DNA from: Nitrospirota bacterium
GTDB taxonomy: Bacteria > Nitrospirota > Thermodesulfovibrionia > UBA6902
DNA length: 52,778 bases
Direction of reading: 5' to 3'
NCBI GenBank assembly: GCA_016213945.1
Contig: JACQZF010000089.1
Coordinates: 1 to 52,778 of the forward strand
In this document: in pieces, positions 11,868 through 27,512 of the stretch
Layout of the letters: each line of letters starts with the position of its first letter
Position numbering within the stretch: position 1 is the stretch's first letter
The notes under the pieces: generated by a model
Told to the model about the DNA's origin: nothing
The model's database searches: none
Seen by the model: the letters and a program-made list of their open reading frames with translations, nothing else
Program-made: the position numbers and the translations under genes

Positions 11868-11964
11868 GTCATTCCCGCAAGCGGAGCGCGTCGGGAATCC
11901 TTCTGAAAACAAAGAAAGATTCCGGACAAGCCAACAGTAGGTCGGGCGGAGCCGCCGGAATGAC
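11868..11964. repeat. GTCATTCC...GGAATGAC palindromic repeat, copy 1
   Basis: It begins GTCATTCCCGC and ends GCCGGAATGAC, with GGGAATCCTTC and AGATTCCGGACAAGCC inside. A half copy (AGATTCCGGACAAGCCGGAATGAC) follows at 12072-12096. Other copies are at 17122-17179, 22571-22618 and 27330-27385. All lie between genes. Confidence 0.85.
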
Positions 11965-12121
11965 AAAGGTGTCATCTTGATTGCAAAGTAGAATAAGATA
12001 GTCGTGCATTACTCGGGGAATGAAAGCTGAAGATAATTAGAGTTTGTTTATAAACCCGGCAATCTTGGAGAAAGATTCCGGACAAGCCGGAATGACAGAA
12101 AAAGGCACTTAAAAACAGGCC

Positions 12122-14217: not shown

Positions 14218-17070
14218 ATGAACATACACAATCTCTCCAAAGATACTGTACTGAAAAATCTTGTTACTTCAGACAAGGGGCTCTCTGAAACTGAAGCGGC
14301 AAAGAGGCTGCATGAATACGGGCTGAATGAGATAAAGGAAGTAAGAAAAAAATCTCTCTTCCACAGGTTCATTGCGCAATTCACGCATTTCCTCGCCATC
14401 CTTCTCTGGCTTGCTGCGGGACTCTGTCTTTTATCTGAATACCTGCATCCCGGAGAGGGGCTGGTTTCCCTCGGTATAGCAATATTCGGGGTCATACTGA
14501 TCAATGCTGTTTTTACTTTTGTACAGGAATACCGTGCTGAAAAGGCGATTGAAGCTCTGAAGAAGCTCTTGCCCTTCAATGTAAAACTTTCAAGAGATGG
14601 TTCAACCAAAGAGATTTGTGCTGAAAATGTAGTACCCGGAGATTTAGTGTTCCTGGGGGAAGGCGACAAGGTGCCTGCTGACGCGCGGCTCATCGAATCA
14701 AATTATTTAATGGTAAACAATGCGCCGCTCACGGGAGAATCCGATACAAGGCCGCGAAGTCATGAGGCATTCGAAGGCGATTATTTTGAAAGTCCTAACA
14801 TCGTCTTTGCAGGCACTCATGTAGTAAGCGGCTCAGGGAGGGCCGTTGCTTTTGCTACAGGCATGTCTACGGAATTCGGGAAGATAGCCCATCTTACAAG
14901 CGGCGTTCAGGAAAGATTAAGCCCGTTGCAGAAAGAGATAATAAAGGTAACGAAAATAATAGCCGTTATCGCCCTGACCACGGGGATATTCTTTTTTGTC
15001 CTTGGGACCTTCATCGGCAGGAGCTTCTGGCATAATCTCCTGTTTGCCATCGGTATCACTATCGCCAATGTCCCTGAAGGACTTTTACCGACGGTCACAC
15101 TTTCTCTGGCTATGGGCAGCCAGAGAATGGCAAAGAAAAATGCGTTGATCAAGACCCTCACATCAGTTGAAACCCTCGGCTCTGTTACGGTGATATGCAC
15201 CGACAAGACAGGCACGCTGACGCAGAATAAGATGGAAGTGCAGGAAATCTGGACACTGTCAGATTCAGATGCCCTCAGAATTCCCTCCCCCTTGAGGGGG
15301 GAGGGTAAGGGTGGGGGTGAGGCTTGGTCTGGTATTTCACCCTCCCCTTCATCCCCTCCCGTCAAGGGAGGGGAGTCTTACAACATGCTCATGCAAGCTG
15401 CATCCCTTTGCAACAATGCGGTTTACGATAACGGGAAATACAAGGGCGACCCGACAGAGGCCGCAATTTTGAAGGCTGCGAGAGAAGCCATAGGAGACAT
15501 GAAAGCCGAGCGCATCCATGAGATACCATTTGACTCGGAGAGAAAGAGGATGACGACTGTTTACAAGTGGGAAGTGGGAAGTGGGAAGTGGGAAGTAAAA
15601 GAAAAGGACTTACTAACATCAACTTCTCACTTCTTACTTCCTACTTCTTACTTTTCTTTTACCAAGGGCGCTCTCGAAACGGTCCTTCCGCTTTGCACAG
15701 ATATTCTCAGGGACAATGAGGTAAAAGCAATCAGCGAAGATGATAATAACTCCCTCATGCACACTTATCACTCCATGATGGATGAAGGGTTGAGGGTAAT
15801 CGCGTTTGCGTATAAAGAAATAGGGGACATAGAACACAGAATACAGAATACAGATAATCCCCCTTTACCCCCCTTTAGTAAAGGGGGGATGGGGGGATTT
15901 GATATTGAATCCGACCTCGTCTTCCTCGGTCTCATGGGGCTTGAAGATCCGCCAAGGCCTGAAGTCCCTGACGCTATAGAGAAGTGTCACAGCGCAGGCA
16001 TTAAAATCATCATGATCACTGGCGATGCAAGCAGGACGGCGGTTGCGATTGCAAAACAGATCGGTCTTGTCAAAAACAATCCTGTAGTGATTGAAGGGCA
16101 TGAAATAAATGTGATGTCTGATAGTGACCTCAGGGGAAAGCTTTTATCAGATGAAATCATCTTTGCGAGGATGACGCCTGTTCACAAGATGAGGATAGTG
16201 ACCATTCTTGAAGATGAAGGGGAGAGGGTCGCGGTGACAGGCGACGGGGTCAACGATGCGCCGGCGCTGAAGAAGGCGAACATCGGCATCGCTATGGGTC
16301 TGACGGGAACTGATGTGGCGAGAGAGGCGGCGGACATTGTTTTGCTGGATGATAATTTTGCCTCCATCGTAAATGCAATAGAGGAGGGGAGAGGGATTTT
16401 TGAGAATATCAGGAAATTTATTACCTACATATTCGCATCCAACATACCGGAAGCTGTCCCTTACATTGCATATGTAATCTTTAACATCCCGCTTCCCCTC
16501 ACCATCATGCAGATACTGGCGGTTGATCTCGGGACCGATATGTTTCCCGCGCTTGCCCTCGGAGCTGAAAAACCGGCAAGGGGCGCGATGAGGCAGCCTC
16601 CCAGAAGCCCTGAAGAAAAGTTGCTGAATTTTAAAATACTCGGCCGCGCATATTTGTTCCTCGGCCCCATTGAGGCGCTTGCCGGGCTTTCCGGATTTTT
16701 CTATGTATTGCATTCAGGCGGCTGGCAGTGGGGAACGATGCTTCCTTCTCATGAAGTGTTGTATATGCAGGCCACAACAGCCTGTCTTGCAGGGATCATC
16801 GTTTCACAGATCGGCAATGTGTTTGCCTGCCGCTCATTCAAAGACTCGATTTTCAGGCTCGGCTTCTTTTCCAACAAACTGGTCATACTCGGAACAGCCG
16901 CCGAGATAATTCTCTCGGCGCTCATTATTTATCACCCGTGGGGCAACAGGATCTTCGGGACCGCGCCCCTAAGAGCGGATGTGTGGCTGCTCTTAATACC
17001 GTTCAGCATCGGACTGCTTTTGGCAGAGGAATTGAGAAAATATTACGCAAGAAGATATAGTAATGCATAA
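14218..17070 (+). CDS. P-type cation ATPase, Na,K-ATPase-like (P2C type)
   Basis: 950 aa integral membrane pump. It has the cation-ATPase N-terminal domain, TGES dephosphorylation loop (about 178), phosphorylation motif DKTGTLT (D329), KGALE nucleotide-binding Lys, the MITGD motif and the hinge TGDGVNDAPALKKA, then six C-terminal membrane segments. TM4 reads NVPEGLLPTVT and TM6 DLGTDM, which match Na,K-ATPase alpha subunits better than Ca pumps (PEGLPAV, TDGLPA). The transported ion is inferred, not proven. No beta subunit is present. Three palindromic repeats lie in frame inside the nucleotide-binding domain (about residues 352-388, 450-481 and 540-563), explaining its extra length. It is co-transcribed with the usp gene. 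Confidence 0.93.
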   Translation: MNIHNLSKDTVLKNLVTSDKGLSETEAAKRLHEYGLNEIKEVRKKSLFHRFIAQFTHFLAILLWLAAGLCLLSEYLHPGEGLVSLGIAIFGVILINAVFTFVQEYRAEKAIEALKKLLPFNVKLSRDGSTKEICAENVVPGDLVFLGEGDKVPADARLIESNYLMVNNAPLTGESDTRPRSHEAFEGDYFESPNIVFAGTHVVSGSGRAVAFATGMSTEFGKIAHLTSGVQERLSPLQKEIIKVTKIIAVIALTTGIFFFVLGTFIGRSFWHNLLFAIGITIANVPEGLLPTVTLSLAMGSQRMAKKNALIKTLTSVETLGSVTVICTDKTGTLTQNKMEVQEIWTLSDSDALRIPSPLRGEGKGGGEAWSGISPSPSSPPVKGGESYNMLMQAASLCNNAVYDNGKYKGDPTEAAILKAAREAIGDMKAERIHEIPFDSERKRMTTVYKWEVGSGKWEVKEKDLLTSTSHFLLPTSYFSFTKGALETVLPLCTDILRDNEVKAISEDDNNSLMHTYHSMMDEGLRVIAFAYKEIGDIEHRIQNTDNPPLPPFSKGGMGGFDIESDLVFLGLMGLEDPPRPEVPDAIEKCHSAGIKIIMITGDASRTAVAIAKQIGLVKNNPVVIEGHEINVMSDSDLRGKLLSDEIIFARMTPVHKMRIVTILEDEGERVAVTGDGVNDAPALKKANIGIAMGLTGTDVAREAADIVLLDDNFASIVNAIEEGRGIFENIRKFITYIFASNIPEAVPYIAYVIFNIPLPLTIMQILAVDLGTDMFPALALGAEKPARGAMRQPPRSPEEKLLNFKILGRAYLFLGPIEALAGLSGFFYVLHSGGWQWGTMLPSHEVLYMQATTACLAGIIVSQIGNVFACRSFKDSIFRLGFFSNKLVILGTAAEIILSALIIYHPWGNRIFGTAPLRADVWLLLIPFSIGLLLAEELRKYYARRYSNA
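15283..15375. repeat. In-frame GC-rich palindromic repeat in the ATPase gene, insertion 1
   Basis: CCCTCCCCCTTGAGGGGGGAGGG at the left and CCCCTCCCGTCAAGGGAGGGG at the right each form a hairpin, and the pieces between are also complementary. It is translated as a Pro/Gly/Ser-rich stretch (PSPLRGEGKGGGEAW...) just after the phosphorylation domain, interrupting normal P-type ATPase sequence. Confidence 0.85.
15565..15656. repeat. In-frame AAGTGGGAAGT/ACTTCTTACTT repeat in the ATPase gene, insertion 2
   Basis: Four tandem GGGAAGT units on the left face ACTTCTCACTTCTTACTTCC-type units on the right, an imperfect long inverted repeat. The translation (KWEVGSGKWEVKEKD...LLPTSYFSF) sits directly before the conserved FTKGALE motif. 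A related AT-richer element is at 30868-30955. Confidence 0.8.
15856..15899. repeat. In-frame AATCCCCC...GGGGGATT palindrome in the ATPase gene, insertion 3
   Basis: AATCCCCCTTTACCCCCCTTT at the left mirrors AAAGGGGGGATGGGGGGATT at the right. It is translated as NPPLPPFSKGGMGGF, placed between the helix ending YKEIG and the conserved DLVFLGLMGLEDPPR. The same element family occurs twice in the methyltransferase gene at 28.8-29.0 kb. Confidence 0.88.
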
Positions 17071-17121
17071 AAAAAGTGAAATGCAATTGATTAAGAATTG
17101 TTGTCAAACCAGCATAGAAAT

Positions 17122-17179
17122 GTCACTCCCGCTTGTCGGGAGTCTTTCTGATGAAAGATTCCCGACAAGCCGGAATGAC
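17122..17179. repeat. GTCATTCC...GGAATGAC palindromic repeat, copy 2
   Basis: GTCACTCCCGCTTGTCGGGAGTC and GATTCCCGACAAGCCGGAATGAC form a near-perfect inverted repeat about 58 bases long, ending 23 bases before the start of the ferritin-like gene. Confidence 0.88.
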
Positions 17180-17202
17180 ACACAAACAGAAAGGAGCAGT
17201 AC

Positions 17203-22570: not shown

Positions 22571-22618
22571 TTGTCCGGAAGCATTCTTCAAAAAGGATTC
22601 CTGACAAGCCGGAATGAC
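22571..22618. repeat. GTCATTCC...GGAATGAC palindromic repeat, degenerate copy
   Basis: The right arm (GATTCCTGACAAGCCGGAATGAC) is well kept. The left arm (TTGTCCGGAAGCATTC) is degraded. It lies upstream of asnS. The remaining gap to 22816 holds nothing I can support. Confidence 0.7.
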
Positions 22619-22816
22619 AACAATTAATGTGGATTCTATAATACCATGAAGATGGATAGATCTAATATATGAGGCTGATTACTGCCCGCGCACTTTTCAT
22701 CCGGGCTCAGCGGAATTTAAATAAGGATGAGGACAGGGCGGAACAATGATTTTTGAGAGAAGCAATTATTTAATAAGTGATAAGGTGAAGGCCCGCAAGA
22801 AGTTACTCAACGGATA

Positions 22817-27289: not shown

Positions 27290-27512
27290 TTATTACACCC
27301 TGTGGTCTCTGCCACAGTTCCAAATTTCAGTCATTCCGGCTTGTCGGGAATCTTTCCAGAAGGATTCCCGACAAGCCGGAATGACACCAATAATAACTTT
27401 CATATAATGGACGACCTGCGGTCTCTGCCGCAGGGTTCTTCACAATGCCCCCGGTTTTTAAGGGGCAAAGACCACCCGTCACGGATTTTGAAAAAAATCC
27501 GTCATGTGAGCG
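27290..27512. repeat. Cluster of palindromic repeats between epimerase and toxin-antitoxin genes
   Basis: The 328-base gap from 27272 holds, in order: hairpin CTGTGG-TCTCTG-CCACAG (27300-27317); a nearly perfect GTCATTCC...GGAATGAC repeat (27330-27385); hairpin CCTGCGG-TCTCTG-CCGCAGG (27415-27434), which keeps the first hairpin's loop but changes both arms in step; TGCCCC...GGGGCA (about 27445-27467); and TCACGGATTTT...AAATCCGTCATGTGA (27479-27509). After them is a possible weak promoter for the antitoxin gene (CTGACA 27534-27539, GATAAT 27556-27561). Confidence 0.8.

Follow-up and report, generated by a model that had tools for sequence, protein, structure and literature searches.

Palindromic repeats in frame within loops of a P-type ATPase and other core enzymes of Thermodesulfovibrionia

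Why does a single P-type ATPase gene contain three different palindromic repeats, all of them in frame? A sequence-only reading of the 52,778-nucleotide stretch of Nitrospirota DNA analysed here (the window) had placed three such insertions in the nucleotide-binding domain, likened them to the palindromic elements of Rickettsia and proposed that either this domain tolerates insertion or the elements target it. These proposals were examined using the genome to which the window belongs (3.5 Mb in 101 contigs, 98% complete) and those of related organisms. Most of the sequences come from metagenome assemblies; the relatives named below are Nitrospirota/Thermodesulfovibrionia assemblies, several of them from groundwater.

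The ATPase gene and its three inserts

The gene encodes an intact type II cation P-type ATPase (Table 1), in which the Pfam domains cation ATPase N, E1-E2, Cation_ATPase, Hydrolase and C-terminal were recognized and whose best solved relative is the Na,K-ATPase 2zxe (535.6 bits). The reading frame is free of stops over its entire length and all five catalytic motifs (LTGES, CTDKTGTLT, FTKGA, MITGD and TGDGVNDAPAL) are kept, in line with the sequence-only reading. The three inserts (of 92, 90 and 44 bp, respectively) follow the phosphorylation motif and precede the hinge, and they coincide with parts of the nucleotide-binding domain that align to 2zxe poorly and with gaps. Judging from alignment with solved Na,K-ATPase sequences, they likely encode surface peptides. 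An AlphaFold2 model of the protein, computed together with eight orthologues, reached a mean pLDDT of only 33.6 and was set aside.

Table 1. Features of the ATPase locus, with positions in the window
Feature	Position	Strand	Description
Type II cation P-type ATPase gene	14218..17070	+	950 aa, intact; identified by Pfam domains and alignment
Insert 1 (site 1)	15283..15374	+	two inverted 23-bp hairpins and 15-bp tails, REPIN-like layout; CCCTCCCC family
Insert 2 (site 2)	~15568..15657	+	GGGAAGT repeats facing ACTTCNN repeats, 26-bp stem
Short direct repeat CAGAATACAGAATACAGA	15837..15854	+	directly before insert 3; read by eye
Insert 3 (site 3)	15856..15899	+	44-bp palindrome AATCCCCC...GGGGGGATT
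Further palindromic repeat (GTCACTCCCGCTTGTCGGGAGTC...)	17121..17180	.	just past the ATPase stop codon, outside the coding inserts; inverted repeat I6

Each site holds a hairpin. The DNA of insert 1 folds with -30.7 kcal/mol (z -4.5 against shuffles) and its translation reads approximately IPSPLRGEGKGGGEAWSGISPSPSSPPVKGGE, while inserts 2 and 3 code for WEVGSGKWEVKEKDLLTSTSHFLLPTSYFS (fold z -5.4 against shuffles) and NPPLPPFSKGGMGGF (z -2.6), respectively. The description of three different palindromic repeats in frame in one gene therefore stands, with three dispersed families represented, and the range given for them (15283-15899) is accurate, with the amendments that insert 2 starts at about 15568 and that site 3 also contains a direct repeat. 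The comparison with Rickettsia holds as well, in that palindromic repeats lie in frame within an intact gene. Another palindromic family (GTCATTCCGGCTTGTCGGGAATC...) occurs in the window at positions 11913-12110, 17121-17193, 22591-22632 and 27323-27399, the second of these copies following closely on the ATPase stop codon.

Dispersed repeat families and the enzymes that carry them

Pattern searches of the own genome revealed 62 matches to the AATCCCCC pattern of insert 3 (family 3) versus none for the reversed-pattern control, 18 sites (36 over both strands; control 5+5 matches) for family 1 (CCTCCC...GGGAGG) and 86 overlapping matches at about 44 places (control 2 matches) for family 2 (GAAGT). 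Across 101 genomes, comprising the own genome and its relatives, the AATCCCCC pattern was found 0 to 186 times per genome. The inserts might alternatively be native variable loops, whose palindromes reflect chance or codon bias; loops of P-type ATPases are indeed variable, and long site 1 loops are present in paralogues too. However, copies of the same families are scattered over the rest of the genome, with almost no counterpart among the reversed controls, which already contradicts this reading. Moreover, palindromes are concentrated in the loops (see below), and at these places the most distant orthologue is limited to 2-9 aa. Distant homologues, in which residues of the inserts were looked for as a sign of native loops, lack them, and we consider this explanation extremely improbable.

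A survey of 71 stretches around pattern matches, in which ORFs were scored by codon usage and only the three patterns were counted, showed 82 of 119 repeat copies to be in frame within coding-scored ORFs, which answers the proposal to look for further in-frame copies. Grouped into 109 clusters by ORF-based classes, the three families were found inside genes in 66 cases, between genes in 25 and at gene ends in 18, as compared with 78% of random positions falling inside genes. The ORF-based classes replaced an in-frame test using coding scores of the flanks, which was too conservative and whose 'shift' class mixes in neighbouring genes. The between-gene clusters do not resemble broken genes, since the neighbouring ORFs start or end outside the repeat core.

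Within the surveyed stretches, 56 genes were affected (47 with one cluster, 8 with two and 1 with three); the ATPase, on top of this set, is the second gene with three clusters. Under a uniform rate, three clusters in a gene of this size have a probability of about 4e-5, so that insertions are concentrated in certain genes or regions, which is what tolerance would predict. The contig of the own genome richest in the three families, C83, contains two adjacent genes (L103:1606-7826), one of them AddA-like (double-strand break repair), with five merged clusters.

Many of the affected genes encode core enzymes. Among 20 affected proteins scanned, 19 had an NCBIfam match at E <= 1e-20, and ArgS, HemH, QueA, PurL, CobQ, PrmC, MurD, MurE, HemC and DapF scored above the equivalog cut-offs with their inserts present. 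ArgS carries two inserts and is the only match for this enzyme in the own genome, as it is in most relatives. The ATPase gene and its domain are not peculiar in carrying inserts, and the idea that the elements target this domain was not borne out, as most of the in-gene copies found sit in other genes. The phenomenon is genome-wide and clade-wide, which goes beyond the earlier description.

These observations are very probably explained by non-autonomous palindromic elements that insert widely, with survival of those copies that stay in frame within tolerant loops, and with their quick replacement. Small elements of several unrelated families would spread through the genome, inserting both in genes and between genes; copies within genes would persist if the frame is kept, stops are absent and the loop tolerates extra residues, and the others, including presumably those out of frame, would be purged. 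Since only fitting copies in tolerant loops would persist, such loops would collect element after element, and one loop of the same essential enzyme would come to hold lineage-specific peptides encoded by repeats. We infer that the inserts are translated and harmless. Against this explanation, they might in principle be removed at the RNA or protein level, and most of the sequences stem from metagenome assemblies.

Long family 3 copies in genes tend to fall into a single length class and codon phase, and intergenic ones are spread through all three length classes (small numbers in both cases). On average, 2.7 of 6 frames are open in intergenic copies versus 1.9 in shuffles, which indicates that the elements are rather stop-free by composition. 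Relative survival, that is, abundance in genes relative to outside, was 0.42 (95% 0.29-0.63), whereas about 1/3 is expected if the frame alone matters and about 0.15 if open reading is needed too. The observed value is thus not below the frame-only expectation and exceeds that for frame plus open reading; this in-gene excess counts against the explanation and cannot be accounted for without loss of intergenic copies or an insertion bias (e.g. non-random length).

Turnover of the loops among relatives

In 22 orthologous ATPases of relatives, the three loops hold differing and often palindromic sequences. Site 1 contains different repeats or short loops in other species. Insert 2 is common to G007, another palindrome takes its place in G004, and the site 2 loop has just 7 aa in L032 and L037. 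Site 3 is occupied by AATCCCCC palindromes, GTAGGGGC...GCCCCTAC palindromes, GGGGCGAACGGCCGTTCGCCCC-type sequences, GTCATTGCGAGG...CTCGCAATGAC and others, and in three species a GTAGGGGC-like element occupies a fourth site, directly downstream of site 2. In the most distant orthologue (L037), the loops are 9, 7 and 2 aa long versus 45, 30 and 28 aa in the ATPase of the window. The G004 ATPase shares 85% protein identity outside the loops, yet its loop DNA is unrelated at all three sites; between this genome and the own one (G000), similar flanks with unrelated loop sequences were found in ArgS as well.

With an arm score of >= 11, 19 palindromes were located in the sites (2.5/kb) versus 2 elsewhere in the gene (0.04/kb), and none in seven paralogues. 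This comparison of densities was used in place of per-loop palindrome p-values, which were dropped because their controls included the other loops. A point against the proposed insertion of elements is that no target-site duplication was recognized in comparisons with relatives, whose sites hold other repeats in place of a clean empty site.

A sequence-specific mechanism directing the elements to the ATPase loops or domain would account for the filling of the same site in many species, and for the GTAGGGGC...GCCCCTAC palindromes that occupy one and the same position at site 3 in L012, L019, L020 and L029. Nevertheless, unrelated repeats occupy one loop, and copies of the three families also lie in intergenic DNA and in dozens of further genes, which makes such a mechanism very unlikely. 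Of the two original proposals, it is tolerance, rather than targeting, that the sequence comparisons support as the explanation of loop occupancy: the same three ATPase loops carry unrelated repeats in relatives, and so do loops of ArgS and MurE, which vary by species and in several of them contain repeat peptides. Selfish DNA seems to have altered these loops repeatedly. Tandem 7-bp units (GAAGTCA, AGCAGTC and GGGGCAA), coding for peptides such as QKSEVRS, were also observed in loops of MurE, ArgS and the ATPase (L123-L175, L010-L030).

The persistence of inserts in essential enzymes could suggest that they have been recruited to a function, e.g. regulation or partner binding. We regard this as very unlikely, as both sequence and family differ even among close relatives and unrelated peptides are found in the same loop.

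L019 and L020 (genomes G006 and G008) have near-identical ATPase inserts at sites 2 and 3 in a gene that is otherwise close to synonymous saturation. The two diverge at synonymous sites by 0.05 within the site 2 insert and by 0.20 at site 3, but by 1.6 over the remainder of the gene; the near-identical tracts extend about 17-33 bp beyond the inserts, and a search of 10 genomes for the spacer of the site 2 element gave these two loci and no others. Insert segments may therefore also spread between species by short-tract recombination at the orthologous gene, in addition to the insertion and replacement of elements proposed above. The case consists of a single clear pair with short tracts, and hairpin constraint or self-correction of the palindromes could also keep the tracts alike; this contribution is possible, though we hold it to be the less probable outcome. 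More speculative still, and in our judgement rather improbable, is the notion that palindromic families favour in-frame insertion (3n, stop-free) together with short-tract recombination centred on the palindromes, by which loops of core enzymes would be exchanged as cassettes.

Relation to known palindromic elements

According to reviews (PMC10969869, PMC2229807), in-frame palindromic elements have been reported in Rickettsia, Wolbachia and Methanocaldococcus jannaschii (Ogata 2000, 2002, 2005; Suyama 2005). Rickettsia palindromic elements (RPEs) belong to several palindromic families and lie in frame in genes that are unrelated and often essential, whose protein products are expected to work (PMC10969869, PMC2229807); a guanylate kinase containing an RPE is active (PMC2229807). 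The elements described here likewise form dispersed palindromic families with in-frame copies in unrelated protein genes, which are not destroyed. They differ in their units (44-92 bp versus the 105-146 bp of RPEs; PMC2229807), in their host, a member of Nitrospirota (Thermodesulfovibrionia), in the occupation of one loop by different families depending on the species and in the number of insert clusters per gene, which reaches three. Coding palindromes have mostly been treated as a peculiarity of Rickettsia and Wolbachia; here they occur, in many copies within core enzymes, in a clade beyond these two. The refilling of loops in each species provides a natural record of the sites at which proteins accept insertions and of the pace at which selfish DNA rewrites them, and the many orthologue pairs make it testable whether such insertions play a neutral or a useful role in protein evolution.

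Intragenic GTAG/CGTC REPs are short palindromes in coding regions of several bacteria, and in recB of two Xanthomonas species different REPs are located at about the same site (PMC3733652). In our material, GTAG-tagged palindromes (GTAGGGGC) are present at site 3 in some relatives, whereas inserts 1-3 were read directly as having no GTAG/CGTC tag. Further differences from these REPs are an in-gene share only somewhat lower than for random positions and a turnover extending over 20-odd orthologues. By analogy, the present elements would work like RPEs and intragenic REPs; we do not claim membership for them, as they are set apart by size and tag. A search of the open-licence literature yielded no earlier report of coding palindromes for Nitrospirota, and an Rfam search of the inserts gave no family at the gathering score, only sub-threshold hairpin matches. 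The novel aspects are the host group, the heavy burden on core enzymes and a turnover that recurs at fixed loops.

REPINs are paired with RAYT transposases (PMC3116915). None of the three repeat families was found beside a RAYT at the four Y1_Tnp matches (1.6-3.3 kb per locus), and unlike REPINs the present elements are not mainly extragenic, given the cluster counts above. Of the marks of MITEs, terminal inverted repeats with a target-site duplication, inverted ends were observed here, whereas neither a clean empty site nor a duplication could be recognized because relatives have other repeats at these sites. Insert 1 and the long family 3 copies resemble REPINs in consisting of paired inverted hairpins, and insert 3 does not. 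In L044, L088, L092 and the L021/L026 loops, the second hairpin of family 3 elements contains a further short unit, CCAACAGTAGGTGC(C/T)TTAA (peptide KAPTVGL), nested within it.
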